A stretch of DNA of 64,000 bases, taken from the NCBI GenBank assembly GCA_028583605.1, contig CM053328.1, positions 29,175,578 to 29,239,577 of the forward strand, read 5' to 3'. Below, one piece after another: positions 1,666 to 64,000 of the stretch. The notes below the pieces were generated by a model. That model did not search any database and was not told the origin of the DNA. It was given only the letters and a program-made list of their open reading frames with translations. Position numbers and translations under genes: made by a program. The stretch is from Dastarcus helophoroides (lineage: Eukaryota > Arthropoda > Insecta > Coleoptera > Bothrideridae). Within the stretch, counting starts at the first letter, position 1, and every line of letters starts with the position of its first letter.

Positions 1666-2895
1666 TATTTATTTTGGAAACATAATCATATCCAGTAATG
1701 TGAGATGATAACTGAAACTAAATACTGTGGAAACTGTACAATATGCTCTTAATAGAAGGTACCGAAAGGAAATGTACTTCAGTAATTATTGTCATGCAAA
1801 TAGAAGTTCCACAGGCTGTACACTGACTTTTAGTTGACATTTTTTCTTTAAATCCTTGCAGTAAATTTACTAAACAAGATATTTACTACCGAACAAAATA
1901 TTTTTATTTACAACCACTGTAACGTAAACATGATGCTTAATATTTTTTGTAAAATGCCTGGGCATAAGCCATGTTTGATGTTAGGAATAGTTTTTAGAGA
2001 AAAGTATATTTGCATGTTGAGATTGAAGACGAACATTCTGCTTATTTCTGGAAGTATGAAGTTCAAAGTAAAAATTTTTAATTTAAGGTTAGAAGATCGA
2101 AAAGAGTTTGACATTTAACTGTAACAGGCAAAGTACCTAACCAATTTACGTGGTATGCACTTTTTGTTTTAACAATAATTTATGGTTTTTTAAACTGATT
2201 TTTATATCGATTCTCTTCTTACATAACCCGATTTGGCTTTGTTGGCCTAAGACTTATCAATAAGGTCACTGTAAAGATTTTAAGCTTATAGTCATTAGTC
2301 AGCCCAACAAATATTCTAGAAATCTAAACCTCGTTGAGTAATTTATAACTAATTGTGAGTTTGTACTGTATCTTACGACAAACATTATTTTTGTTATATA
2401 GATAGATGTGATATCGGTCGGACAGGATAAACAGGCAAGGAAAAATTTTCATTGTCCATGTAAAACGCTAAGAATTGTCTCTTCCATAGTTTTCAACGGC
2501 CGCTGAACGTATTCCCCTACTTTGACGCAGCATGCTTGTATCTTCCAGTTTACAAGAGAATTTTACAACAGACTGAAATATTGTTTAGCGCAGTCGGGTG
2601 GCCTATTTGAACTCCTTATATTCTAATGTTTAAAGAGTTATTTTGTTATATTCTTCATTAGAATTATTATTTAATTTGTTTAGGAAATCTCGTTTATTTA
2701 TCTTGGTTATCAAAGAATATCAGTTTTATTTTGCCTCAGACGTTGATTAAATCAACAGACTAAAAGAACAAACAGCATGTGGTACGCAAATTTTAATAAA
2801 ATTGTTGCCTACCAGTAGAATTCGCGTAACAAAACTCATTAGAAGCTATGATGTACTACTGAAATCTCCACCAGCACTGATGGTTGCGCTCTGCG
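1666..2895. other. Non-genic AT-rich sequence
   Basis: Short opposed frames at 1908-2118 are mutual shadows without motifs. The stretch around 2400-2600 has a more mixed base composition, but no exon signal was found. Confidence 0.4.
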
Positions 2896-6848: not shown

Positions 6849-6852
6849 AGGT

Positions 6853-7235
6853 TGTGTACGATGTAACTTAAGTCACAAAGGTCACTAATAATGAGGTAAC
6901 TTTCTCGTATTTATGGGTTGCATGGCAACATCCATCAAATAAAAACCCCCTCGTCGTTACGTGCATTAAGGTATGTTAAACTTAAGAAATAATGTGGCTG
7001 CTTAATGAATATAAGTTGGAAATGATTACTGCTGCCACATCATACTTATGAGGCCAAGGAAGGCAGAAACTGGTCTACGATGATTGGGCGTAAATATTTC
7101 CAACTGTAGCACGTTTGCATTATTACAAAATGTTTAATTGATTTTATTGAATACAACCGATAATAATATAATAATAATAATAAGAGAATTATCTCTCTAC
7201 TAGTCACCTTTGTGACTTTGGTTACGTCGTACATA
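6853..7235. mobile_element. MITE-like element with ~37-bp inverted ends
   Basis: The left end (TGTACGATGTAACTTAAGTC...) and the reverse complement of the right end (TGTACGACGTAACCAAAGTC...) match at about 30 of 37 positions and share GTCACAAAGG. No coding capacity is seen. Part of the left half (about 6860-6995) recurs at 11990-12123, and a related end sequence occurs at 11322-11375, so this is a dispersed family. An ATA-rich microsatellite lies near 7160-7185. Confidence 0.55.
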
Positions 7236-7280
7236 ATCTAATTGTAAATTTAATATTTATTTGCTACCAAATTCTAACTC

Positions 7281-7445
7281 TAATGCACAGACCAATAGAT
7301 TTGAATATTTATTAGATTCGAAGTTTGGAAACCAAATACCGATTTCGATCTTGTTAGATCTACGAGATCTAACAAGATTGAAACTGGTATTTGGTTTCCA
7401 AACTTCGAATCTAATAAATGCTGAAACCTATTGGTCTGTGCATTA
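7281..7445. repeat. Hairpin with two 81-nt arms
   Basis: Arms 7281-7361 and 7365-7445 are near-perfect inverted copies around a 3-nt loop (ACG). Each arm holds the same words found in the 39-40 kb array (GACCAATAG, ATTCGAAGTTTGGAAACC, TTGTTAGATCT). At 39-40 kb these words are in single orientation, so this copy is an inverted duplication of the family's internal segment. The adjoining 7446-7590 continues with the rest of the family sequence in reverse. Confidence 0.85.
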
Positions 7446-7590
7446 GAATCCTTGTCTTCTGGGAACTTTCCTAGAGAGCAACCCCTTCGCTAGGTGGCAG
7501 TCTTTCAACTGTTGGTAGTTCAGCTACCTATGATTCACTATACACGCCTGGAGGGCTGCATGAATTTGTAGTCTAGGTTGCATTCTACTT
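7446..7590 (-). mobile_element. End of the 7.3/39.9-kb MITE family
   Basis: Read on the minus strand, this segment follows the same order as 39853-39990: GCAAGTAGAAT, GCAGCCCTCC, ATCATAGGTAGCTGAACTAC, TTGCTCTCTAGGAAAG and AGAAGACAAGG. It therefore supplies the left terminal region of the family, next to the hairpin. The LDLa exon lies 150 bp further on. Confidence 0.7.
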
Positions 7591-7740
7591 GCATACCAAT
7601 TTGTTGTACAAAAATATGAAATAAGATTTTATAGCAATGATATATGCAAATCCTGTTATAATTATTGCCGTTCGCCATTTCCTCGATTCGAATTAAATTG
7701 TATGGTATACAGTCTCTGGTATATAGTGAATCGAACTTAC

Positions 7741-7919
7741 CTGTGCAAAAGGAAGGTTCATCGGAAACATCCCCACAATCGTCTTTGCCATCGCAGTAAG
7801 CGTTAAGTCTAACGCATTTGCCGTTTCTGCATGGAAATTCGCTAATTCTGCAGGCAGGTCCTGGGCTGCTTTCTTGCAGGAGACACAAGACAACCGCAGG
7901 AAACAGCCACAACCACATC
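7741..7919 (-). CDS. Exon of secreted/membrane LDLa-domain protein
   Basis: The exon starts just after a good acceptor (CTTTCCAG at 7920-7927) with gATG and ends at a strong donor (CACAG|GTAAGT, GT at 7740-7739). The product begins [15 protein letters not shown], a typical signal peptide or signal anchor. It is followed by a complete LDL-receptor class A repeat with six cysteines ([34 protein letters not shown]). The acidic [13 protein letters not shown] segment is the calcium-binding signature of the fold, which binds ligands extracellularly. The exon ends in phase 1, so more coding exons must follow at lower coordinates; none was recognised in this window. One LDLa repeat does not identify the gene: a receptor, a modular protease or a secreted adaptor are all possible. 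This is one of the few intact host coding segments here. Confidence 0.85.
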
Positions 7920-8336
7920 CTGGAAAGATAAAATTATCAGTGTGGATTGCTCCGTTCGCTAATATTAAGTGAATACTTGGCTAATTGATTAGTTTACATA
8001 TGCAAATCGAATATTCGATTTGAAATAAAGGATTTTCACTGAATGGATGACTGATGTGCTTATTTTCTATGCGATGTGCTTTTTATGGTTAGCTTTTACG
8101 TCCAAGACTTCCTCAAAATTCGTGAATTTTTAAAATTATCTTTGGGATTCAAAAGTGAAAATTTAAGCTTGTAATCACATTTTCTCTCTTTTCTCTAAAA
8201 ATTTAACTTTTGCCTGTAACATGTTTTTAGGTACAGCTTTGGTTTTACCTTAAAATTTTTATTTTTCCATTAAAATTTCGACATTATTTAGTGATAGTGA
8301 TCCCTTTTCACCAAATTTTTTTTTCTCAAATTAAAA

Positions 8337-8494
8337 AATTGCAATAGAAGTCTTGTCCCCTGAAGCCAAGAAAGATTAAAAAACACAATAAAGGTTGCTC
8401 TAACGCATTTCGATGGCTCAGCTATCAACTTCAGAGAGATACTGTATTTCAATTTTTTTAAAAAACCAAGGACCAGTCCATTCCACCAAAATTG
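8337..8494. repeat. Dispersed palindrome family, copy 1
   Basis: The reverse arm runs CTTGTCCCCTGAAGCCAAG, GGTTGCTCTAACGC, TTTCGATGGCTCAGCTATC and CTTCAGAGAGATAC, then switches to the forward distal part (TGTATTTCAATTTTT, AACCAAGGACCAGTCC, TTCCACCAAA). The middle of the forward arm is deleted, leaving a lopsided palindrome. Confidence 0.75.
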
Positions 8495-11321: not shown

Positions 11322-12123
11322 TATGTACAATGTAACTAACGTAACAATGTAATTAAAGTCACATCCGAGTCAAAAATGGTCTGAGTGATATGGGTTCCAG
11401 GGCATCAAGGAACGAGGGGGCAGATAGACTTGCAAGAGGCCTCAATTACACCTCTTTTCGGCCCAGAACCATACAGTGGTCTTACAAAAAGCCACGTAAA
11501 AGATGATATAGATACTTGCGAAACAAACCAAAGGTTATACTGGAGAAAAACTCCAGGCCTAAGATAGTCAAAAAAGTTCATCACTATCTCGAAAAAGAGG
11601 TCTGAGCAGTTTCTCGAATTGAACAAGAATGACTTAAGAATAATAACTGGACTTTTCACAGGACACTTTCTAGTAAAGTATTACCTTAAAAAGACGGAAA
11701 AAGTGGATAATGATAACTGCAGATTCTATAGCGCAGCAACAGAAACAACAGAAGATTTGCTATACGAATGCATGGCTCAATTCTGTAAAAAGCTCAAATT
11801 TCTTGAAAGGGTAACTCTGACACTCCAAGAAATCAGAGTAATAGCTCCTAAAAAGATAATAGACTATGTAACAAGTTTAAACATCTTGGACAATAATTAA
11901 AAAATTAGAGTCTTTACAAAAGATCCTAATGGGTCGCAGTGGTGAGAGGTGTAAAAGCCTATACTAATCTTTTTCAGAACTGTACAACTGTAGAACTAAA
12001 GTCACAAAGGTTACTAATAGTGAAGTCGCCTTCTTGTATTACAGGTTGCATAGCTGCATCCATTAAATAAGGGTGCCCTCGACATTACACACGTTTAGAT
12101 ATGTCAAACCTAATAAATAATGC
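11322..12123 (+). mobile_element. LINE 3' fragment flanked by MITE-like repeats
   Basis: The left part (11322-11375, GATTATGTACAATGTAAC...) resembles the inverted end of the 6853-7235 element. The right part (11990-12123, AAAGTCACAAAGG, GGTTGCAT, GCATCCAT, AATAAATAATG) resembles that element's left half. Between them sits an RNase H-LINE fragment. Either the LINE landed in such an element, or these segments are the LINE family's own untranslated sequence. Confidence 0.45.
11385..11900 (+). pseudogene. RNase H-bearing LINE, C-terminal fragment
   Basis: Two plus frames. The first begins in the last RNase H motif (IWVPGHQGTRG) and runs through FGPEPYSGLTKSHVKDDIDT, matching the SPFIGPEPYFGVAKCHIK segment of the copy at 3387-3791. 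The second (11619-11900) holds the tail NDLRIITGLFTGHFLVKYYL. The tail continues through a degraded cysteine motif (DNCRFYSAATETTEDLLYEC). It is 5'-truncated within RNase H, and a frameshift near 11570 separates the halves. Confidence 0.78.
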
Positions 12124-21102: not shown

Positions 21103-21264
21103 GTATCTCTCTGAAGATGATAGCTTGACTATCGAAACGCGTTAGAGCAACCATTGATCTCTCTGAAGATAATAGCTTGGCTATTGAAACGCCTTAGAGC
21201 AATCACTGTTGCGTTTTTTAATCTTTCTTGGTTTCAGGGGACAAGATTTGTATCTCAATTTTTA
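21103..21264 (+). repeat. Dispersed palindrome family, copy 2
   Basis: Forward arm only, with its first ~50 bp duplicated in tandem: TCTCTCTGAAGATGATAGC... then TCTCTGAAGATAATAGC..., followed by GTTTTTTAATCTTTCTTGG, TTTCAGGGGACAAGATTTG and CAATTTTT. It abuts the truncated LINE RT. Confidence 0.8.
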
Positions 21265-21286
21265 AAATGAAACTTAAAAAAACACG

Positions 21287-27859: not shown

Positions 27860-28103
27860 GTTTGGTGGAAAGGACTGGTCCTTGGTTATCTTCAAAAATT
27901 GAAATACAGAACTTGTCCCTTGAAACCAAGAAAGATTAAAAAACACAACAAAGGTTGCTCTAACGCGTTTCGACAACCAAGCTGTCATCTTCAAAGAGAA
28001 AATCAGCAGATGACAGCTTGGCTGTCGAAACGCCTTAGAGCAAGCTTTGTTTTGTTTTTTAATCTTTCTTGATTTCAGGGGACAAGTTCTTTATTTCAAT
28101 TGA
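27860..28103. repeat. Dispersed palindrome family, copy 3 (full palindrome)
   Basis: The reverse arm starts TTTGGTGGAAAGGACTGGTC and the forward arm ends TTTATTTCAATT, head to head around a short centre near 27990. It is flanked by the 8-bp direct repeat ACCAATAA (27852-27859 and 28104-28111) inside the mariner 3' region. The forward arm lacks the outermost 40 bp or so present in the reverse arm. Confidence 0.88.
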
Positions 28104-28179: not shown

Positions 28180-30380
28180 TTTATTTTAATTTCAAATTTT
28201 GATTTTTTTTCAGTAATATGATTTTTTGGAAACTACTTTAATCTTCCAATGCCCACTTTTTTATAAACCATGGATTTCACGCTTTCACTTTTTACTATAT
28301 TTCCTAAAAATAAAATTTCAATTCTGTTTTTTAAAGAAATATTCATTTCTTTTGAAATTTTGTTCAGAAAGATGTACTTTTTTCAAAATTTCGAAAAAAT
28401 TTTTACTGGTATTGTTTCCCAAATTTTCTACCTCAACATTCATGCCAATTTTTAACTTTTTTCAAAAAATTGTGTCTTCAATTAAACTAGAAATTTTGCA
28501 CTTTAGGAAGCTTAAGTTTATTTTAAAATTTTATAGCCAAATGTTAATTTTTTTCTCTAAATTTCAAGTTTATATTTTTAATTTTTGTATTGTTAAGTGA
28601 AAGTTCAGGAAAATTCATTTTAATATAAATGGATGAATTTTTACAGACTTTTCTTCTAGTTAAAAAAAGGAAATTGTTAACAATTTCTGGAGATACCAAT
28701 TTTCATTTAAAAAAATGGAAAAAAAAGTCAACCGTTTAAAAAGAGTCAAAATTCAAAATGTTGGTGAAATGCAAAATTAAAATAAATTGTAACACTTGAA
28801 GAAAGTTGAAATTAAACAAATCAAACTTCTTAAAAATCTAAATTTTGGGAAAAGTCAATATTTTGACACAAAGGGAAAATTTTGGAACAAGGTTTAATTT
28901 TTAGAAATCTAAATACAGACAAACCTCCTTACAACGAACCTCCACATACCGAATTCCTCTATATAACAAACTTTTTACAGAACACAGCATTTTAAGTAAA
29001 TTTACCACATAAAACTACTTCCATTTAACAAACGCAATACCGACCATCCAATACAGCGAATTTTTAAACCAAGATTTTGCAAGGTTTAATTAGTTTTTAA
29101 ATGCACCGTTCAGAAAAATTTCTTAATTTTTGAGATACCTATACTAACGACTTTTCAAGGTTTAATTAGCTCTTAATAGCATTCCGTTAAGAAAAAGTTC
29201 TTCATTTTGGGATATTCCATGCTAATGACTTTGCCTGTTTGCACAAAAAGCTGATTTCTTGTGCCAGAAGATTTAGAGGTGTAAAATTGCAAAAAAATGT
29301 CGAAGAAAAAGCTTTAATGACCAGCGATAAAGTTCAAATGATCAATAGTGTAATAATAAGGGTTTAAAAAAAATCACATCGCCAAATCGCCATAAACTTT
29401 TAAATCCCTGCTAGCGTATGAACTTTTACATATGATTTGTGTATTTTTAATTTAACCTCTCTATAACGAAAACCTCTCTATAACGAATTTTGTTGTAGGA
29501 TTTAGGAATTCGCTGTAGGGGATTTGACTGTATCTTCAAACTAAAAAGGTTAAAATAAAAAAAAACCGAGATCGAAAAAATCTAAGTTCTGTAAAAAGTA
29601 GAAATGAGAAAATATCGAAATTATCAAAGAATAAATTAAAAATTGTGAGAATTCGACCATTTCTAAAAACTGAAATTTTTAAAAAGTGGAAAATCGTAAT
29701 AAATTCGAATGTTAAAAATAATTCTAAATTTTGAAATAAAATCAAAATTTTGAGAAACTCGAAATTTTGAAAGCCAAATTTAAAAGAAAGTGATATTTAA
29801 AAAAAATTGAGATTTTCAAATAAGTCAAGGAATTTTAAAAACGTAAACATGTTAAAAAAGTCGAAATTTTTAAGAAACTCGAAATTTTGAAACAAACTCA
29901 AAATGTTTCAAAGTTTCGAAATTAAAAAAAGCGAAATCTAAAAAAGTCATAATTTTGAAGAAGGTCCGTGAAAAATTGAAATTTTGCAAAAATATCGTAA
30001 TTTAATTAAACAGGTAATGTAAAATAAAAAATGTCAAATTCATCGAATTTTTTAAAAAAGGCTAAAATTTTTAAAAAAATCTCGAAATTTCCAAAGAAAT
30101 TGAAATGTCCAGAATTAAAAAAAAATCCTAGGCTTTGAAAGAAGATCGAAATTAATAAAGTCAAAACTTCCAAAAAGTCAAAATTTGTACAATAAGGTAA
30201 AATTTTGGTAAAAAGATGGAATTTTGCAACTTTCAAAAAAACTCGACCCCTTCAAACAAAAAAAAATTTTTTAATGTCAAAATTATCATAAAGATGATGA
30301 AGGCTTAAAAAACCGAAGTTTAAAAAAATCTTAATTTAGAAAAAGGTAGAAATTTTCAAAACAAACTTTGACAAATGACC
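28180..30380. repeat. AT-rich strand-biased low-complexity DNA with a polarity switch
   Basis: From 28180 to about 28620 the plus strand is T-rich (TTTCAAAATTTCGAAAA-type words in reverse); from about 28640 onward it is A-rich (AAAGTCGAAATTTT words). Frames such as 28226-28600 (+) and 29536-29745 (-) are rich in F, L, I and K purely from composition and should not be read as proteins. A less simple insert lies at about 28910-29520. Confidence 0.5.
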
Positions 30381-30393
30381 AATTAAATGTTCT

Positions 30394-30594
30394 GTAATTA
30401 AACAGTTAAACGTGCTTAAAATTGAAAATATGTACAACCGCAACCATAGACTAGTTTCGGCCTTCCTTGGCCTCGTCAGCATGGTACGGTGGTTGTATAC
30501 ACTTCCAATTTAAAGCCGTTAGTCAGTCGTATAAGTATCCAAGAGAGCAAACCTCCATTGGGTGACTTGTAACTGACTTTTAACTGTTTATTAC
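30394..30594 (-). mobile_element. Small element with inverted ends carrying a hammerhead
   Basis: GTAATTAAACAGTTAA (30394-30409) is inverted at 30580-30594 (TTAACTGTTTATTAC), bounding about 200 bp. The unit contains the hammerhead ribozyme and no ORF. Hammerheads of this minimal type occur in Penelope-like terminal repeats and in small retroelements such as retrozymes; which this is cannot be decided here. Confidence 0.55.
30433..30497 (-). ncRNA. Hammerhead ribozyme, canonical core
   Basis: The minus strand contains the full invariant core in order: CUGACGA (CUGANGA), stem II GGCC-AAGGAA-GGCC, GAAA, a minimal 2-bp stem III (AC-UA-GU), then the cleavage triplet GUC (site between 30449 and 30448). 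Stem I closes both sides: inner ACCAUG with UAUGGU (6 bp including one wobble), an internal loop ACCGU/UGC, then outer UACAACC with GGUUGUA (7 bp, perfect). The very short stem III is what is known for Penelope-associated minimal hammerheads, which cut best as dimers. All paired segments are intact, which is notable among so many decayed repeats. Confidence 0.9.
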
Positions 30595-30639
30595 GCAAAC
30601 ATTTTCGCTACATGCTAATTGAAGCATTACTCTCTGCTG

Positions 30640-31744
30640 AGATAATAAGCCTTGTACAAACTTTGACTTTCACTTTTGAAAACGTCCAAAGATTAAGAGA
30701 CTAAATTTTGAAAAACATCAAAATTTTGTCATAACGTTGAAATTTAAAAAAAATTGTCAATCTTCTAATAAATTCGCCAGTTTTAAAAAAAGAAAGTTCA
30801 AAAATCCAAAATTTTGAAAAAATACAAATTTTCAAAGTTAAATTTAAAAAAAGAAAAGATGGAGTTTTCAAATGAAAACATTTTTAAAATAAGGCAAATT
30901 TTGAAACAGTTGACATTTTAAAAAAGTTGGTATTGTGTGTAAAATAACCAAAATCAAAGTTACGTAAATTGTGGAGGGTGCTTAAATAAACAATGTGGAT
31001 GTTGTTTTTTGTTCTTTCAGATCTTAGACGCTTCTGCAGATAATTCCTAGGCAACAGCCCGCAAAAAGTCTTACATTTTATGACGGAGGGAGGGCACAAA
31101 GGCCTGTTGGTTCCTAGCTATGCCACTAGGTTACTTGAAATTGTAGATACAAAATAAGCTCCTTCATATATTTTCTGTATCTTCTTTGGGGCAATCTATA
31201 ACAGATTGCCAATCTTTAACAGAAGGTTACTGAAAATTAGAATTGTGAAAGGAGTAACTGGCAAAGAAAAAGCCAATAAAACAGGAACAGAAGCTCCTCT
31301 GCATACTTCAACATTATTCCAGATGTATTTCCAGGCAAATATTTTATACAAAAGGCATAGATAAATTATTATCAGCGTCATATCACATCATTTAATTTCG
31401 TCATTGTCATGATACGGTACTAGAGGCAATTACTCATAATAATTTCGCTGACCAAGTCTTGGGTAACAGCTAGTAGCTACATATTTTTGAAAAGCCCTAA
31501 TTAAAATTATGCGGCAAAAAAATGATATGGACAATGTTTAGTTTAGCAAATTTGATTAAAACCTTAATTATTTTTATTAACTAGCACTTCACTGATGAAT
31601 TACAACATGGATTGAAGAAATAAGATTTCCTAAATCGGTGAATATTCTAAAACAAAAATAACCATGACTTTGACGCAGGAATATTCCGTGCGCAAAAAAA
31701 TAGGACAGTAGAATAAAAACCGATGCACTCTAATTTTAGTATTC
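30640..31744. other. AT-rich non-genic sequence
   Basis: 30640-30930 continues the A-rich tract style. Minus frames at 30884-31099 and 31196-31381 show no domain and no clear splice pair. Around 31640-31740 the sequence is unique but featureless. Confidence 0.35.
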
Positions 31745-37228: not shown

Positions 37229-37725
37229 TACAGGATATACTTCTTCCGGGATTGGACCGTGTCAAAGAACTACTAAAAGTGTTCGATGTTTCGCCCACCA
37301 TTGTAGAGGACTTCTTCAGGAACAAAGAAAAGAAACAATAAATGAAAAGAGGAATATGAGGGAATATGCAAAAATGAAAGAATGAAAAGGCAAAATTCAA
37401 AACATCAGAGCACGGTAACTCAGTATGTCCTCCATACCAGCGGCGAAACTCTTCTGAATTGAAAATTGGTACAAAGGATAAGAAAGTTTAGACAGAAGAG
37501 CACGGTAACTCAGTATGTCCACCATACCAGAGGCGAAACTCTTCTGAATTGAAAATTGGTACAAAGGATAAGAAAGTTTAGACAGAAGAGCACGGTAACT
37601 CAGTATGTCCACCATACCAGAGACAGAACTCGTCGAACACTTTTAGTAGTTCTTTGACATGGTTCAATCCCGGAAGAAGTCTATCCTGTACTGACTCTGG
37701 CCGTGGAAGCATTCGTTATCATAAA
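37229..37725. mobile_element. Penelope-derived unit with inverted terminal repeats
   Basis: The left part (37229-37370) is the Penelope terminal repeat in reverse (GGGATTGGACCGTGTCAAAG, GATGTTTCGCCCACC, TTCTTCAGGAACAAAG). The middle (about 37405-37620) is 2.4 copies of a 90-bp coding repeat in reverse. The right part (37625-37725) is the terminal repeat in forward orientation (TCGAACACTTTTAGTAGTTC ... GTGGAAGCATTCGTTATCAT). The reverse transcriptase and GIY-YIG regions are gone. Frame 37397-37615 (-) is only the 90-bp repeat translated (ILSYRALLSKLSYPLYQFS). Confidence 0.8.
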
Positions 37726-39100: not shown

Positions 39101-39852
39101 GGTTCTAATGCAGATACTAATAGGTTTTAACATTTATTAGATTCGAAGTTTGGAAACCAAAGACCGGTTTCAATCTTGTTATATCTCGTCAGTTTGGTTT
39201 ATCAAACTCGAATGCTAACAAATGTTCCAACAAATAAGTACTAAAGAATCAACAAATGTCAAGTGTGTGATTTTCAGACTATCACCACCTATTGCTCCAT
39301 AGAGAAAACTCTGGTCATCGCCAACAATGTCCTATGCAAGTTGCTCTCTAGGAAAGTTCCCAGAAGACAAGGGTTCTAATGGATAGACCAATAGGTTTGA
39401 ACATTTATTAGATTCGAAGTTTGGAAACCAATAACCGGTTTTGGTCTTGTCAGATGGTATATCCAACTCAAATGCTAACAAATCTGCCGACAAGTAAATA
39501 CTAAAGAATCAAGGAATGTCAAGCGTATGACTCTCAGACTACCGCCATCTACTGGTCCATAGAGAAAACTCTGGTCATCGCGAACTGTGTCCTATGCAAG
39601 CTGCTCTCTAGGAAAGTTCTCAGAAGACAAGGGTTCTAATGGATAGACCAATAGGTTTGAACATTTATTAGATTCGAAGTTTGGAAACCAAGAACCGGTT
39701 TTGGTCTTGTTAGATGGTATATCCAACTCAAATGCTAACAAATCTTCCGAAAAGTAAATACTAAAGAATTAAGCAATGTCAAGCGTATGACTCTCAGACT
39801 ACCGCCATCTACTGGTCCATAGAGAAAACTCTGGTCATCGCCAACAATGTCC
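39101..39852 (+). repeat. Tandem array of a 260-270 bp unit, three copies
   Basis: Units begin at about 39101, 39371 and 39631. Each has GGTTCTAATG, ACCAATAGGTTTGA, TAGATTCGAAGTTTGGAAAC, CTTGTTAGAT, CAACTCAAATGCTAACAAAT, GTAAATACTAAAGAAT, CATAGAGAAAACTCTGGTC and GTCCTATGCAAG. The first unit is the most diverged. A fourth, differently bounded copy follows as a complete MITE. Confidence 0.85.
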
Positions 39853-40203
39853 TATGCAAGTAGAATACAACATAGACTGCAAATTCATGTAGCCCTCTAA
39901 GCATGTTAGTAAATCATAGGTAGCTGAACTACCAACAGTTGAAACACTGCCACCTAGCGAAGCAGTTGCTCTCTAGGAAAGTTCTCAGAAGACAAGGATT
40001 TTAAGGCACAGACCTAATAGGTTTGAACTTTTCCTAGATTCGAAGTTTGGAAATCAAAGAAAGGTTTCGATGTTGTTAGATCTCGTCAATTTGGTATATC
40101 CATTTCGAATGCTAACAAATGTTCCGACAAGTAAGTACTACATATGATTCACTAACACGCCTAAAGGGCTGCATTTGCAGTTAGATTGTATTTTACTTGC
40201 ATT
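39853..40203. mobile_element. MITE with ~60-bp terminal inverted repeats
   Basis: The left end (ATGCAAGTAGAATACAAC, GACTGCAAATTCATGTAGCC) is inverted at the right (GGGCTGCATTTGCAG, ATTGTATTTTACTTGCAT). The inside carries the same core as the tandem array. The array copies lack the left terminal segment: their CCTATGCAAG runs straight into TTGCTCTCTAGG. The array may thus have arisen from an internally deleted MITE. The same family is at 7281-7590. Confidence 0.75.
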
Positions 40204-41899: not shown

Positions 41900-42062
41900 T
41901 TTTGGTAGAACGGACTGGTCCTTGGTTATACTCAAAAATTGAAGCACAAATCTTGGCCCCTGAAACCAAGAAAGATTGAAAAACACAACAAAGGTTGCTC
42001 TAACGCTTTTCGATAGCCAAGGTATCATACTCAGAGAGTCTCTCTCTCTGAAGATCATACTC
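41900..42062 (-). repeat. Dispersed palindrome family, copy 4
   Basis: Nearly complete reverse arm (GGACTGGTCCTTGGTTATAC, GGTTGCTCTAACGC, TTTCGATAGCCAAGGTATC), followed by only the first 25 bp of the forward arm (TCTCTCTGAAGATCATAC). Confidence 0.8.
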
Positions 42063-43790: not shown

Positions 43791-44016
43791 ATGACGTATG
43801 TTATGACGAATTCGTATTCCAACTTTTTGAAAACACCAGATTTGTCTTATAAATTTCATATTTAATGGAGGGATAATTTGTTTAATTATTAAATTCTGCT
43901 TCCTGAATTGGACCGTGTTAAAGAACTGCTAAAAGTGTTCGACGTTTCGCCCATCAGGGAGCTTCTTCAGAGACAAAGAAAAGAAACAATAAATGCAAAG
44001 AGAAATATAAGGAAAT

Positions 44017-45560
44017 ATGCAATATGGTCTCCCCAAAGTTCACAAACCCAACATTCCCTTTAGGCCCATTGTCAGCACGATAAATTCACCTACCTACAAT
44101 GTCTCGAAATATTTATTTAACATCCTCAAGTCATATACCGGAAACACATCATCATACGTCCTAAATTCTAAACACTTTGTCGAATTATTAGCCGAATTAA
44201 CCATAGACTCCAACGACATACTGGTAAGTTTTGACGTCACTTCACGATTCACTAATGTTCCAGTTTCCAACTCCATGACGATATTTCGTCAATTACTTTC
44301 AGGCAAAGGAAATGCAGATTATCTAGCTGATTTAACTGAAATGTGCCTCACATCGACTTATTTTTCTTTCAATGGCAGCTTCCATAAACAAGTCTTTGGC
44401 AGCAAATATTTTCATGGAATCTTTTGAAAACACTGCGTTGGAAACTGCGGATTTAAAACCCAAGGTTTGGCTTCGTTATGTAGATGATACATTTATTGTA
44501 TGGCCACATGCCAAGGATTCACTAAATTTATTTTTGGAACAACTAAGCAGTTTACATTCTTCCATTAGCTTCACTATGAAAATCGAAAACAACGGTTCTC
44601 TTCCTTTTCTTGACGTACTGGTCACCCGTTTACCAAACGGTCGCGTTTCTCATTCCGTTTATCGAAAACCCACCCATACTAATCGTTATTTGCATGCAGG
44701 GTCCCATCATCACCTTTCCCAAAAACGTTCTGTCATAAATTCACTGGTTTCACGAGTTGTAGCAATTTCACATCCGATAAATCTTTCAGACGAGTTGAAC
44801 AAAATTCGTTTCAACCTTCTCAACAATGGTTACAAATCGTACGACATTGAAACTGTAATTAAACGACATCTTCACCCTACCCCTCGCCCTTCACAAAATT
44901 CAATAATTTTTTCTAAAGCCTTTCTTCCTTATGTTTACGAAGTAACAGATCAAATCGGAAAATTATTGAGAAAACATAACATCAAACCCATTTTTTTATC
45001 ATCCTCAAAGATCCAACAGCTCCTCCCATCTCCCAAAGATAAAATTTTATCCTTTTGTTCTAATGGTGTGTACAGGGTTCCTTGTTCTTGTGGTTCAGTG
45101 TACATCGGAAAAACAGGGCGATTATTTAAAACGCGAATATCCGAGCACCAAAGATGTCTTAGGTCTGGTTTATTTTTGCAGGTCACCCATTGCGGAACAT
45201 CAACATGAGATCGGACATAAGATTATCTTCAATAATATTTCAATTATATCCAATATTCCCAATTACTATAATAGGAAGATACGCGAGGCCATTGAAATCC
45301 AAAAATTTCCCAAAAACATCAGCAGAGGCGACGGTTACATGCTTTCCTCCAATCATTGGAAATCTTCGGGAAGTGATCGCGCAGACGAATGGTATATAAA
45401 GTGTCCCTTTCCCTCTTTCCTCTCAGAAGGGTTTCGTCATGTTATGGTGGACATAGTGAGTTACCGTGCTCTACTGTCTAAACTTTCTTATCCTTTGTAC
45501 CAATTTTCAATTCAGAAGAGTTTCCCCTCTGGTATGGTGAACATACTGAGTTACCGTGCT
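44017..45560 (+). pseudogene. Penelope-like RT / GIY-YIG endonuclease polyprotein (broken)
   Basis: Frame 1 (44017-44427) starts in the RT fingers (GLPKVHKPNIPFRPIVS, then FDVTSRFTNVP in motif A). A small deletion removes the usual motif B core after FHKQVFG, and frame 2 (44372-45208) continues with ANIFMESFENTAL, RYVDDTFIVW (motif C, intact) and NNGSLPFLDVLVTR. Further on are VYRKPTHTNRYLHAGSHHH and the endonuclease YRVPCSCGSVYIGKTGRLFK. Another frameshift near 45185 moves to 45063-45572, with IAEHQHEIGHKI, NYYNRKIREAIEIQKFP and DGYMLSSNHW, then the 90-bp terminal repeats. The enzyme class copies element RNA and uses GIY-YIG cleavage for insertion. The 5' third of the usual ORF is missing. 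Confidence 0.9.
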
Positions 45561-45571
45561 CTGGTGTTTTG
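45420..45571 (+). repeat. 90-bp in-frame repeat at the Penelope ORF end
   Basis: The TGAGTTACCGTGCTCT word recurs with a 90-bp period (TTACCGTG at 45461 and 45551). Ninety bases is 30 codons, so the frame is preserved and the peptide VDIVSYRALLSKLSYPLYQF repeats. The 37.4-kb unit has 2.4 copies and the 13.8-kb fragment about 1.5, so the copy number differs between elements. Confidence 0.8.
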
Positions 45572-45770
45572 AAATTGGCCTTTTCATTTTTGCATATTCC
45601 CTTATATTTCTCTTTTCATTTATAGTTTCTTTTCTTTGTTCCTGAAGAAACCCTTACGATGGAGGGCGAAACGTCGAACACTTTTATTGGTTCTTTGACA
45701 CGGTCCAATCTCGGAAGGAGTATATCGTGTACTGACTCTGGCCGTGGAAGCCTTGGTTATCATATTGAAT

Positions 45771-46743
45771 TCTCTTTTAAAATTCATAATACAAAACTCT
45801 ATATGTATATTTATGAAAAGCAAAAAACACCCTGTCGTATGATTCGAACGCTCAAGAAAGACAAAGGACGTCAGTATTTTTCTCTAATGAATGCCCACTC
45901 CTGATCTTTCTTTTGTAGTAGGGACGATTTGAAGTCAATTATTTGGTAAAAGTTTCAAGGAATCAAAACTTCCTAACTAGACAACAGGAATACCAAACGA
46001 CAAAGAGTTTTCTGTTTAGAAAAATTTAACTAGTTCACAAAGAAAATTGAATGAGTTTTGTTCATTATCTCGCTTTTATTAGAAACCTTTCTTTTATATG
46101 AACAAAAAAATGGACCGTCTCGCTTCAATTGACTTTAATCAGCATTCGACATTTCTTTGTCTTGCCGGCGAAATTTTGCATAACAAGGCATCTATTTATT
46201 TTCAAGTGGTATACTTTGTACCGAGAGAATGGAAAGGAGCTTTGATTTTTCATAGGATTCAAAGAAACAAGAAGCACTTATCGTTTTGATTTTATTAACT
46301 TCTCGAGTGCATCAATTCAAATGCAAATATAATGCGACTTTAAGGCAGTCAATTGTGTGGAATGCAGTTTTAAGTGTTAGATCTTCTCAATGTGTATTTT
46401 TTCGACGTGTAGATAAAAAACTACTTTATTACGTCAATAATTACAAAGTTGAAATCCACATTAATATGCGATTGCACTGATTTTTGTTTAAATAATTTTT
46501 TTTTAAATGGGCAGTCTACCAACAGAAACGAAAACTTAAAACTAGGAAATAACAGTGATAAAATGTTTCCTGATGTTATTGTTTATGATGTAATTTAATT
46601 GTTCTGGAACTAACCTAAAATGTTTATATATTTTGATATCTGCGGGGACATACCTAAAATTTTATATCATTTACATTAAACTCAGGTGACAGGCGACTTA
46701 TACACAAGCCTTGATCCTAGGTTATATCCGAACCTTTCCATTT
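45771..46743. other. Non-genic sequence
   Basis: Frames at 46098-46289 and 46286-46480 have no recognisable domain and no splice context. Confidence 0.35.
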
Positions 46744-52972: not shown

Positions 52973-53082
52973 ATATTTTTTTTTCAAAAACTTGAATGTA
53001 GAATCAAAACAGCTTTTTTTTAGAGTCTTGACGTTATTCTTAGAACCGTTACCTAAAAAAACCGATTTTAAGTTTAATAATT

Positions 53083-53221
53083 ATCTCTATGATGATAGCT
53101 TGGCTATCGAAACGCGTTAGAGCAACCTTTGTTAGGATTTTTAATCTTTTTTTGGTTTCAAGGAACAAGATTTGTATTTCAGTTTTTGAAGATAACCAAG
53201 GACCACTCCGTTGCACCAAAA
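53083..53221 (+). repeat. Dispersed palindrome family, copy 5 (single arm)
   Basis: Forward arm from ATGATGATAGCTTGGC through TATCGAAACGCGTTAGAG, TTTGGTTTCAAGGAACAAG and GAAGATAACCAAGGACC to TTGCACCAAA. No reverse arm. Here the first part reads CTATGATGA rather than CTGAAGATGA. Confidence 0.8.
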
Positions 53222-58740: not shown

Positions 58741-60102
58741 AATTTTAAATAAAAGACGGGACACCATTATTGGCGTCCAAATTTGCTATCAGATGTGGGT
58801 ACATGAGTATCCGTTAAAAAATTTTCGAGTCAGTTAACGACATAAACTTAATTCATACTACTTAATCCCGTACTTACGCATCAAGTTTCATCTTCCCTCT
58901 TCTGAATTTATATGACTCACCTGTAACAAAAATTAGGATTTAAAATCATTAACCAGATTTCATTAAATGTAATTATTTTATTATATTTAAGAAACAGTTT
59001 AATGGTAGCAAAAAAAAGGCAGCTTCTCTAAAGAATTGCGGACCTTTTTGTCTTCGAACTTTCAATTCTAAAGTTGTTTTATAGCAATAACTCAAATCCC
59101 CGATTTTACATGAAACCGCACAATCGTAAACTACACGATTCCTATTGAAATCTCGGATTTTCAGCAAACCAAGCTTTATCATTCATTGTGTAAATTTGCC
59201 CAATGACTTCCCAACTAAGTTATATAGATAAACTTGGACCGAAATAAAGTTAAGCTCTTAAAAGTTTGTCAATGCTCATTTACCATAACCTGATAAAATG
59301 ATAATTGTTCAACTGCTTCCTAAGAAACTTGTTTTGTTTTGATGAGTTAACCAGAAGTAACAATGAAAATGGCCATTCGTAGTCATTACGGCCGATAGTA
59401 CTTGTCTCAAAAGCACTATTGTCGCAGCATCTTAATTAATTGATGTTCTAAGCTTGAAATATTGATTTTTTTTTAAATACAATATATTTCACCATCCGGA
59501 TATTGCTTTGTTCGATAAAAGAGGGAATATTTGAAAAGTTATAAGTAAACGAGGAATTACGGTTTACTGCCAAGTTCTAGTACCCGAATTTTACGATGCT
59601 GATCACGAATACTTACTCCTAGAGTCAAAATCATAATAGGGATGCGGAATGCATATTTCCATTCCCTATATTTTATGACTACTCATTGCCATACCTAACT
59701 TATTTTAGAAAATGAAACCCTAGTGCATGCTGTTCTATAAAATCTTCCAGCTAGAGACTAAGTGATATGATATGGATAAATATTTTTTTCTGATGAGGCT
59801 ATTTATACTGCAGGTAAATCAGTGGTGGTTCGTCCTAAATGCTGCAAGGCCGCGTGCCCCTCATGAAATGAATAATAAAATAATAACAATAGTAATTTAT
59901 TGCATATTCTTAATATAAAGAGAATACAAAATACAAAAAGTACAGAAATTAAATACTAAACAATTATTTATATACTAATTATTGATTATAATTAAAATAT
60001 GCAAAAGGAACTAAAAACCCAATTTGTGATCTAGTTCAGCCCCCAAAAGAGAGAAAATAAAAAAATAAAAACGATAACCATAATTACCAGTGAATTTTTT
60101 TT
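58741..60102. other. Non-genic AT-rich sequence
   Basis: Frames at 58625-58837 and 58973-59182 lack motifs. 59845-59985 is A/T microsatellite-like, resembling a retroelement tail, without an identified body. Confidence 0.35.
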
Positions 60103-60341
60103 TTTGGTGGAACGAATTTGTCCTTGGTTATCTTAAAACATTGATGTATGAATCTTGTCTCCTGCAACCAAGAAAAATTAAAAAATACAACAACAGTGGA
60201 TCTAGCCCGTTTCGATAGCCAAGCTATCATCTTTCGGAGATATACTACGAGTATCTCTCTGAAGATGATAGGTTGGCTATCGAAACGAGTTAGAGCAACT
60301 GTTGTTGTATTTTTTAACCTTTCTTGGTTTCAGGAGATAAG
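60103..60341. repeat. Dispersed palindrome family, copy 6 (full palindrome)
   Basis: Reverse arm from TTTGGTGGAACG through GTTATCTTAAAACATTG, CTTGTCTCCTGCAACCAAG and TTTCGATAGCCAAGCTATC, then a centre around ATATACTACGAGTATCTCTC, then the forward arm to CTTTCTTGGTTTCAGGAGA. As in copy 3, the forward arm stops about 60 bp earlier than the reverse arm. It lies directly against the Ty3/gypsy fragment. Frame 60148-60534 is the palindrome plus gypsy in the wrong frame. Confidence 0.88.
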
Positions 60342-60344
60342 AGG

Positions 60345-61557: not shown

Positions 61558-62278
61558 AGAGGACGGGGCGCTGAAGGTGGGCATGGAAAGGCGCATATGG
61601 AAAAGTATGGTAAGTAAAATTTCACGAGAACATACTATTCCATTTACAAAAAAAGAGTTGGGAGAGTAGTCTTCACCACCCTAAAATATAGGAAACTCCA
61701 AACAAAAATCGACTGGTTCCAGAAATTTAAATTATTAGATGACTCATTCCATTTTAATTAAATTGGGTCGAAATGATTTTGTATGACTTCTATGCTTTGT
61801 ATTCGCGCCTGTTCGACGAATATTTAATTATTTATTCAAGAACTTGTAATATATTCAATTCGAAAGATTATAACTGTCGTTCAGACCATATAAGTTGAAA
61901 ACCTTCCATTGAGTCAGATTCTGAATTTAAATGATATTTCAAATCATTAGTTACAGAGTCATTGAAAGGTTTCTAAGCTTTCCCAGAAGAGACTGCTCGT
62001 AGACTAAAAGCTGATGAAAAATTCTTTCAACTTTTGTGCGTGTGTTCCAGTTTATTAGAAAGCTTCTTGAATCAGCTGAGTATTTGCGTTGCAAAAAATT
62101 ATGATTTTTTAATACACGGGCATCTAGAGTATAATTCCGTCATTCGCAGAGTGCCACAAATATATTGCATAATATCGACTCGCCTTGAGTTTGCCATTGC
62201 GTCATGAATGTGTATACTAATATCAAAGACACACGTAAATTAATATCAGCCGACAATAGAAAGCGGCAGATGTTAAAA
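61558..62278. other. Non-genic AT-rich sequence
   Basis: No supported feature after the gypsy fragment ends. Confidence 0.35.
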
Positions 62279-62434
62279 ATTGAAATACAAATCTTTTCTC
62301 TGAAGATGATAGCTTGACTATCGAAACGCGTTAGAGTAACCTTTGTTGTGTTTGTTAATCTTTCTTGGTTTCAGGGGACAAGATTTGTATTTCAATTTTT
62401 GAAGTTAACCAAGAACCAGTTCGTTCCACCAAAA
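62279..62434 (+). repeat. Dispersed palindrome family, copy 7
   Basis: A short reverse scrap (ATTGAAATACAAATCTT) is followed by the full forward arm (TTCTCTGAAGATGATAGC, TATCGAAACGCGTTAGAG, TTTCAGGGGACAAGATTTG, TTCGTTCCACCAAAA). The reverse scrap and its complement in the forward arm could form a stem enclosing the rest. Confidence 0.85.
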
Positions 62435-64000
62435 AAAAAAACAATTTGAGATGTCTTCAACCATAATGTGATTAGCGTAGTCCAACTTCCATTTGACAAT
62501 CTTTGGGGAAAATCTGTCACACAAATTTGACACCTGTTGTCATTTGATTTTTGTGGCTCTTTTTATTTTTTCTTGGGATATTTTGTAACGGTTCGGTCTT
62601 ATGTTTCCTTCCACTTGATGTGACAAATTTAGTCATTGAATTGACACAAATATACTATATCTACGAATTGTTGTTGGTAATAAATATTTCGGATTCTCCG
62701 AAATAAGCCATTTATGGAACTGGCAATCTAATACAATTTTGAGGTTAAAAACTGAATAACAAGAATTGTAGCAACATAAAATATAGCTATGCATAATAAT
62801 AATAAGTTATAATAAAAATGTTTCAAGATTGTTATTTAGCATTTTTATTTAAGTGACAAAGACAAGAGGAAGCTCAATATGGATTTAAATTTCAACCTAG
62901 ATAAACTCGATCTTTTACTAAATAATTACATTGGTACGCTATAAATGATAGTCCTGCTGGCGAGTTACCTATCTCGCTTAATTTTTCATTAATTATTACC
63001 GATGTAGTCAAGGGGACTTTATTATAAGTTACAGTTTTAGTGCCATAGGGCCTATAATTAAATTGTAGAAATACCGTAAGGAAAGCCTGAAAGAACAGTT
63101 TCAAGATGAGAGATTATGACGCCTCATAAAGTGAATTTTATCACTGCAGAATTGTATAGTTTTATTTATTTGTAATAAAACGACCTAGCGACTCCTAAAC
63201 AAGCACTTTGAGTCAAGTGCCTGTTAAATGATTCTATTTTACAATTTTCATTAAATATTTCTTTAATAATTCAGAATTTACTTCCGTAATTGAGGTACAT
63301 TTTATAGTTATATTTGGTGCTGCTGGATAAATTAATTTTTGATGTCAGACATTCATTTTACAGCAGGAATTTAATATTTTGCTTATTCTTTAATTGCTCA
63401 ATTTTCCTGTCTTAATATCACTCGAAATTGGAAATTTAATACGTTCGACTTTGTTTATTTCAAGGGTTCTTACTGTGTAAATTAATTCGAGGAAACTAGG
63501 ATCAAGTTCCTGCTTCTTTCAATGATCACGTTTTGTTTACCTTTCACAATGTGTCTCATTACTCAGTTTTGATTTTAATAATTTATTTCTATTAGGTACA
63601 GTAATAATAATGCCTTCATTTTTTAAAGTTAACAATCCAATTAGAGGAAATACATTTAAATCAGGATATTCGATTACACTGTTGTAACAGAGAGAAATAT
63701 TCTGATTGACTGACTGCCTACGCTCACAGCAGTAATTACTGGAGATGCAACTTGGACGAAATTTGAAGACCAAGACATACAGGAAGAAAGAAGTTTTTGA
63801 AATTCCTTCCCTTCTGTAACCGATTATATTTAGTTGTTCAGTGCCTCTGAAAATTTATCCCCTCAAACAATGAAGTAGGAGATGAAAGTAACTATCAACC
63901 TAAGAGCAAATATCCATTTTTCTATTTTTGATATGGGATTATGGACTACCTCATAAATTTCTAGAAAAAACTTCCAAGTTCCAATTTAAAAAAAAATATT
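62435..64000. other. Non-genic AT-rich sequence to window end
   Basis: Frames at 62892-63104 and 63537-63773 on the minus strand have no motif or splice support. TAATTA-rich patches could be intronic regulatory DNA, but nothing specific is supportable. Confidence 0.35.

Follow-up and report, generated by a model that had tools for sequence, protein, structure and literature searches.

A high-copy hammerhead retrozyme family in Dastarcus helophoroides with an insertion anatomy resembling that of Penelope-like elements

In a 64,000-nucleotide stretch of the genome of the beetle Dastarcus helophoroides (GCA_028583605.1, contig CM053328.1, positions 29,175,578 to 29,239,577 of the forward strand; hereafter, the window), a complete hammerhead ribozyme lies within a young, high-copy, non-autonomous, and apparently non-coding non-LTR retrozyme, an element of a known kind. 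The insertions of this family follow the design of Penelope-like elements (PLEs): two fixed ends, one per arm, arms placed head to head, and a duplication of the target. This anatomy matches that of PLEs in detail and, for retrozymes, we have not seen it described. From the genomic copies we infer, with a probability of about 0.85, that machinery of the PLE type copies the retrozyme RNA, in all probability a circle, from both strands of the target. Animal retrozymes are abundant and form stable RNA circles, and the enzyme that mobilizes them is the question addressed here. Features of the window are listed in Table 1.

Table 1. Retrozyme, hammerhead, and PLE features of the window, in window coordinates.
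Feature	Position	Strand	Details
Retrozyme insertion, single arm	30373..30655	minus	283 nt, unit positions 2-284
Probable target-site duplication, copy 1	30361..30372		12-bp direct repeat, ACAAACTTTGAC on the plus strand
Probable target-site duplication, copy 2	30656..30667		12-bp direct repeat
Site A hairpin, CUC-AGCA-GAG	30632..30641	minus	Unit 16-25, loop 19-22; predicted circular fold
Site B hairpin, 5' strand	30373..30378	minus	Unit 279-284; predicted circular fold
Type I hammerhead ribozyme	30433..30497	minus	65 nt; sequence, descriptor scan with simulation, genomic cores
Predicted hammerhead cut	between 30449 and 30448	minus	
Stem I outer helix	30497-30491 / 30439-30433	minus	TACAACC / GGTTGTA
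Stem I internal loop	30490-30486 / 30442-30440	minus	ACCGT / TGC
Stem I inner helix	30485-30480 / 30448-30443	minus	ACCATG / TATGGT
Hammerhead core	30479-30473	minus	CTGACGA; N7 is C in the window, T in other copies
Stem II	30472-30459	minus	GGCC-AAGGAA-GGCC, hexaloop AAGGAA
GAAA, CTAG, TC	30458-30455, 30454-30451, 30450-30449	minus	
Old decayed retrozyme relative	6998..7140	plus	About 70-71% identical
Second old retrozyme relative	2261..2386	minus	67% identical, hammerhead unrecognizable
PLE F2 inverted arm	43893..44022	minus	Decayed minimal hammerhead, core at 43970
PLE F2 main arm	44011..45767	plus	Broken RT/endonuclease-type frame and minimal hammerhead
PLE F2 head-to-head twin	37229..37723		Minus arm ends at the 45731 equivalent, plus arm at the 45764 equivalent
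F3 head-to-head twin	27861..28101		One arm with and one without a tail of about 36 nt
F3 head-to-head twin	8328..8491		Two different ends

The hammerhead contains the core order CUGANGA...GAAA...UH and stems I, II, and III, with stem I open. The original prediction, made from the letters of the window, held that all invariant positions stand here in order, that stem II is a 4-bp GC stem, that stem I consists of 6-bp and 7-bp helices around an internal loop, and that the cut falls between 30449 and 30448. The sequence confirmed the structural points (stem II is GGCC/GGCC), and the same cut position is predicted. Both the internal loop ACCGU/UGC and the hexaloop AAGGAA are present. Two other details were revised. 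The proposed 2-bp stem III would leave a loop of 2 nt, so it is better described as one A15.1-U16.1 pair closing the palindromic tetraloop CUAG, and the suggested minimal Penelope-type variant does not fit a hammerhead in which stem I contains an internal loop and stem III is capped. Since the CUAG cap is palindromic, two hammerheads could share a 6-bp helix III, ACUAGU, and the ribozyme probably cleaves best as a dimer through this palindrome. A one-pair stem III with a palindromic tetraloop is shared with the amphibian HHR_Amex1/newt satellite hammerhead, and the HHR_Amex1-type hammerhead was reported to work better as a dimer; the beetle ribozyme differs from it in host, sequence, and unit length, which is 331 nt in axolotl (PMC7229834).

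A descriptor combining CTGANGA, stem II of at least 4 bp, GAAAC, GTH, and stem I of at least 4 bp matched only one place on the two strands of the window, positions 30433-30497. Simulation of 297 Mb of single-strand sequence at the dinucleotide frequencies of the window gave no match, and the chance expectation is therefore well under 0.01 per window. In the genome (538.9 Mb in 50 contigs), a pattern with 24 fixed bases found 1,187 perfect cores (596 + 591), with C or T at N7; the same pattern read backwards had no match in the whole genome. The earlier statement that a chance origin is very unlikely agrees with these counts. The exact core-plus-palindrome pattern had no matches in viral and prokaryote collections.

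No Rfam family reached its gathering score across the window. The best model in the region, Hammerhead_HH9 (RF02275), scored 22.7 bits vs. a gathering score of 52, with an E-value of 0.0016 over 251 nt (one lower-scoring match of the same clan omitted) and 0.41 over the whole window. The original prediction had treated a covariance score below threshold as decisive against the ribozyme. We judge this result to be outweighed, because of the 1,187 genomic cores and the empty simulation, and to reflect a limit of the models and not a defining trait. The window hammerhead is a real, complete, and canonical type I ribozyme, and its cleavage is predicted.

The element around the ribozyme corresponds to about 60% of a 466-nt unit, for which L009:1570-2035 was used as the reference (unit position 1 is window position 30656). 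The window copy is 99.66% identical to this unit over 290 nt (30367-30656), has a GC content of 0.38 vs. 0.22 in both flanks, folds with a z-score of -7.36, and is embedded in an AT-rich degenerate minisatellite. Elsewhere in the genome, tandem copies are spaced by 466 bp with one core per 466 bp, and arrays of 2-3 units carry whole-unit repeats and no other repeats that we saw. The unit is circularly permutable, with one type I hammerhead, and its circular fold has 73% of bases paired and a z-score of -8.5 vs. 100 shuffles. No stop-to-stop frame of at least 120 aa overlaps positions 30367-30656, and the element was not classed as a PLE because a unit of 466 nt is too short for a reverse transcriptase (RT). 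The earlier interpretation is thus partly supported. Its recent, undamaged insertion is borne out, whereas its lone survivor among decayed elements has a nearly identical unit elsewhere in the genome, and the surrounding element, the probable target duplication, and the insertion design of the family had all been missed.

The repeat ACAAACTTTGAC flanking the copy occurs at just two places in the window. Six of its bases coincide with unit positions 285-290, so a duplication of 6 bp is possible. As proof from the window alone, the 12-bp repeat was rejected, since 5% of minisatellite pairs share 12-mers. It is accepted as a probable target duplication because the family shows such repeats, with 12 bp being the commonest length in set 1 (see below).

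At least 40 genomic places were 100% identical over a 131-bp query (42 matches; 40 of 1,197 candidates scored). Set 1 comprised the 35 loci behind these 40 places plus the window. Set 2 comprised 40 loci, namely those of contig C1 between 0.40 and 15.60 Mb that were not in set 1 plus one large array at 31.59 Mb; C1:4840707, which lies in this range, was left out. Contigs other than C1 are represented in set 1 only. In total, 76 insertions with 110 arms were analyzed. Before counting, an 85% piece of L029 and two pieces of 26-32 nt inside L016 were dropped, two L074 pieces were merged, and the B end of L021 was reset from 306 to 291 after its flank was read. All 76 loci were picked by an intact core, and 36 of them (set 1) also for near-identity, so the shares of twins, ends, and single arms given here are conditional on the intact core; end positions derived from BLAST may err by a few bases.

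Downstream ends fall at one of two sites in 105 of the 110 arms, with 39 ends at site A (unit positions 14-32) and 66 at site B (282-298). The other five lie at unit positions 129, 449, 454, 458, and 466. Upstream ends are scattered, only 12 of the 110 being inside the A or B ranges. In the predicted circular fold, loop A is the tetraloop AGCA (19-22) and loop B is UCAAAAC (286-292); the pair probability is 0.84 for hairpin A and 0.43-0.90 for hairpin B. These loops, 2 of 8 hairpin loops and together 9% of the bases, flank the ribozyme rod, and 270 nt of the unit separate the two sites. Of all 110 downstream ends, 71 fall exactly within a predicted loop, 25 of them in A and 46 in B, with unit positions 19 and 22 being the commonest site A ends in set 1. 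At site B, family ends were recorded at unit positions 283-297, mainly around 284-292. Outside both loops proper are 39 downstream ends; those of them at A and B are at most 13 nt from the loops, a distance over which BLAST end calls and target repeats make the boundary imprecise. The remainder of hairpin B, up to unit position 299, is absent from the window because the insertion ends there.

Inverted twins account for 34 of the 76 insertions (about 45%), and all 34 are head to head. An A end is paired with a B end in 31 twins, no A+A or B+B twin was found among the 34, and three twins have one end elsewhere. The two arms overlap or are separated by at most 8 nt at the junction in 28 of the 34. 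The 42 single-arm insertions end at B (33), A (7), or elsewhere (2); B is favored here because arms ending at A must be longer to include the core. Arm length ranges from 57 to 1,455 nt, the longest arm being 3.1 units, and 41 arms exceed one unit. No arm starts or ends at unit positions 200-216, around the ribozyme cut, among the 110 arms; an even spread would place about 4 of the 110 upstream ends in this region, but the choice of intact cores thins it. No shared poly-A or simple tail was found at the 33 insertion ends inspected. One insertion (L080:1125-1868, retrozyme at 1328-1672) lies between two F3 arms and is apparently nested.

Direct repeats of 9-14 bp flank 41 of the 76 insertions. 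Repeats of at least 9 bp were found in 25/36 insertions of set 1 and 16/40 of set 2, vs. 10/1260 and 13/1560, respectively, in a control with mismatched pairs. They are present in 27 of the 34 twins and in 14 of the 42 single-arm insertions; among the 35 insertions without such a repeat, 28 are single-arm.

The arms of one insertion also share sequence variants. At 11 variable positions, compared in set 1 only, agreement was 114/120 among units of one arm, 123/125 between twin arms, and 8224/11591 between different loci. When arms were permuted among 15 twins, the observed 64/66 was never reached in 5,000 tries. The overall difference, gaps included, was 1.30% within loci vs. 2.48% between loci. 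The shared markers indicate that one and the same unit was copied into both arms. The simplest such template would be a circle, and an array transcript of identical units would also fit. The A/G variants at unit positions 98 and 119 are linked: 17 loci of set 1 have AA, 14 have GG, two have GA, one has CG, and one has AA and GG. Nine of the 11 markers read A/G on the RNA strand, a possible hint of RNA editing or simply of subfamilies. Purine transitions were found at 56 positions vs. 33 for pyrimidine transitions, and RNA editing as the source of variants is suggestive only.

Two groups of PLE-type elements, F2 and F3, were found in the window and elsewhere in the genome. The frame of the main F2 arm is broken into stop-to-stop pieces (44011-45572). 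No Pfam match was obtained for three F2 frame pieces, and a PDB search with a PLE piece gave no hits. One piece is matched by 388 proteins at E ≤ 0.001; among the 120 of them listed, nearly all have RT-type or related domains and, where named, mostly come from insects and other animals. The RT/endonuclease assignment of F2 is thus based on protein relatives, not on Pfam. At least 138 genomic stretches match the PLE protein query (135 of 3,770 candidates scored), and open frames of the PLE family reach 900 aa in the genome. The minimal hammerhead of F2 at 45642 on the plus strand has all parts, with GTTC/GAAC as stem I and without helix III; two others, at 43970 and 37319 on the minus strand, are decayed and likewise without helix III.

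The ends of F2 copies fall at two sites separated by about 35 nt, equivalent to window positions 45723-45732 and 45762-45773. One of these sites was used by 14 of the 15 readable outer ends of the genomic copies L085-L097, the exception being L085, which ends at 45694; L089/L090 is the same locus as L097. Six F2 twins have one arm per site (37229-37723 and 43893-45767 in the window, L086, L091, L096, and L097). Near 45766, the plus arm of the 43893-45767 twin stops matching the family, at which point L095 and L096 run on into the frame. The four genomic twins have direct repeats of 13, 13, 13, and 14 bp, counted without a separate null, and the L096 repeat is of low complexity.

F3, a PLE-type group with a minimal hammerhead that was identified without a reading frame, has end sites about 36 nt apart. 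In the window and the retrieved loci, six F3 twins have one end of each kind: L020, L036, L064 (1742-1992), L065, and the window twins at 8.4 and 27.9 kb. On the contrary side, tandem pieces of L064 (126/129) share the same site, and L081 (138/132) is contrary or ambiguous, perhaps with ends of the same kind; pairing is ambiguous or contrary in L080 and in the window copies at 8.9 and 60 kb. Further F3 copies were found at window positions 21108-21266, 41900-42037, 53081-53221, 60095-60342, and 62275-62440. The F3 hammerhead has the core CTGAAGA and a 5-bp stem II, which an additional base separates from the core. The best F3 copies contain GAAACGCGTT with an ACGCGT palindrome and CTCT/AGAG as stem I.

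In vitro, the PLE protein of Anolis (Poseidon) cuts and extends both target strands, with initiation at two neighboring internal sites, chiefly within an AC-rich stem-loop located 111-118 nt into a frame that begins at hammerhead stem II; the same start site is used on both strands, and hammerhead mutants are still inserted (PMC11167929). Rotifer PLEs (Adineta Penelope; PMC3846280) are arranged head to head, with an optional 31-bp tail on one inverted pLTR and duplications of 8-10 bp where present. The beetle retrozyme resembles PLEs in its head-to-head inverted arms, two alternative 3' ends, and duplications of about 8-14 bp (PMC11167929; PMC3846280). Counted from the start of the core, putative start sites are at +81 to +90 and +120 to +124 in F2 and at +106 to +114 for retrozyme site B; a value of about +118 to +125 was calculated for Anolis (PMC11167929). 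Unlike PLEs, the retrozyme has putative start sites 270 nt apart vs. about 35 nt, a canonical hammerhead, and no room for an RT. The end sites of the retrozyme and F2 show no distinctive sequence similarity, the best 26-nt match being equaled by 38 of the 466 unit windows.

Metazoan non-LTR retrozymes are known from Acropora, Mytilus, and Ambystoma (PMC7229834). As characterized in that article, they share with the beetle family a type I hammerhead with an internal-loop stem I, a short non-coding tandem unit, a GC content below 50% (0.38 here), target duplications of more than 4 bp, RNA with extensive self-pairing, and coexistence with PLEs bearing minimal hammerheads. Their units are about 170-400 nt vs. 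466 nt here, a difference not taken as exclusive because the same text also gives circular RNAs from 150 to over 1000 nt. Two fixed hairpin-loop downstream ends and head-to-head twins set the beetle family apart from metazoan retrozymes as described there, and the words "inverted" and "head-to-head" do not occur in the main text of PMC7229834. Plant LTR retrozymes (PMC4918200, as summarized in PMC7229834) are likewise non-autonomous elements with a hammerhead and a circular RNA intermediate, the last being a conjecture for the beetle; they differ in having a type III hammerhead, LTRs, a proposed Gypsy-type helper, and 4-bp duplications. Mobilization of retrozymes by PLEs was proposed earlier from co-occurrence and shared traits (PMC7229834; also PMC7761336), and a 2020 review describes animal retrozyme repeats as lacking a conserved motif from which the helper could be deduced (PMC7761336). 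Among the openly accessible articles searched, no paper on head-to-head retrozyme insertions or retrozyme start sites was found. The end sites, the A+B twins, and the PLE-sized repeats are direct anatomical marks for the identity of the helper, so that a single purified PLE protein and a 466-nt RNA would suffice to address the question.

Rolling-circle reverse transcription from both strands of the target is consistent with this genomic record. Under the mechanism we favor, retrozyme transcripts would be cleaved by the hammerhead and then circularized. A PLE protein, perhaps acting as a dimer whose protomers each occupy one hairpin, would cut both target strands and extend both. Copying would begin within loops A and B of a single RNA and proceed around it, ending when the two cDNAs become joined. 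On this reading, the window copy would be a one-arm product that began at B and broke off after 283 nt. A stricter version, which we hold tentatively and at slightly less than even odds, has one PLE-type dimer sitting on a single circle at the two hairpins, with nicks about 12 bp apart, two simultaneous rolling-circle reverse transcriptions, and a head-to-head join; the hammerhead would make the circle, and the hairpins would mark the RNA as a PLE parasite. Neither the strict A+B pairing nor such a role of the ribozyme is predicted by the Anolis system, since it starts alike on both strands and its hammerhead is dispensable. The template is probably circular; a linear multimer transcribed from an array would likewise explain arms that exceed one unit and the sharing of variants.

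In a first alternative, PLE-type copying machinery would use an uncleaved, multimeric, linear array transcript as its template, with the hammerhead being dispensable for transposition. This would agree with the insertion of uncleaved RNA by the Anolis PLE and with the unchanged insertion of its hammerhead mutants (PMC11167929), with the arrays of 2-3 units in the genome, and with the lack of arm ends at unit positions 200-216, a region thinned by the choice of intact cores. By itself, however, a linear template leaves unexplained both the intact core in over 1,000 places and the strong foldability of the unit, and many copies are shorter than two units and cannot alone yield multimers. We regard it as less likely, although it is the most serious of the alternatives.

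Mobilization by another non-LTR (LINE-type) RT, with the twins arising by ordinary twin priming, is improbable. RT fragments, presumably of the Jockey type, are present in the window, and LINE twin priming also yields inverted copies. Such priming gives one fixed 3' end, with the second primer at a variable internal place, whereas the outer ends of the retrozyme are both fixed, different, and outward-pointing; the inspected ends share no tail, and the resident PLEs are built in the same way as the retrozyme. Still less probable is a foldback or MITE-type DNA transposon with a fortuitous hammerhead: strong foldbacks are frequent in the window, and the relative at 7 kb lies between 63-bp inverted repeats (79% identity), but these repeats have no match around the 30-kb copy, and the young copies, with their widely varying arm lengths, tandem units, and scattered inner junctions, lack terminal inverted repeats of a constant length. 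Chance assembly of hammerhead-like bases, in whose favor only the Rfam scores speak, has a negligible probability against the simulation, the genomic copies, and the backward control.

The two old relatives in the window fold little better than shuffles (z-scores of -1.48 and -1.06). The copy at 6998-7140 has the core CTTATGA, with G5 lost, and a broken 10.1-11.1 pair in stem II. Its covariation with the 30-kb copy is weak, with two double-change pairs, a number reached by 140 of 500 shuffles. In the alignment of these two copies, 89.6% of cells pair vs. 31.6-41.0% when the alignment is slid. This old copy is contained in a MITE-like element (6849-7240) with inverted ends of about 63 bp, and a second copy of the element (11981-12122) matches it up to the retrozyme boundary.

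A hammerhead-like core at 39192 on the minus strand was rejected, being located in a palindromic 260-bp tandem repeat and having no convincing stem II. This repeat spans 39101-39861 in 2.9 copies. A near-perfect palindrome 32 kb away (7261-7460) has sequence in common with it and is the strongest foldback of the window (-128 kcal/mol in a 220-nt scan). Additionally, a short frame on the minus strand at 7541-7933, perhaps a host exon, begins with a signal-like segment and contains a single LDL-receptor class A domain.
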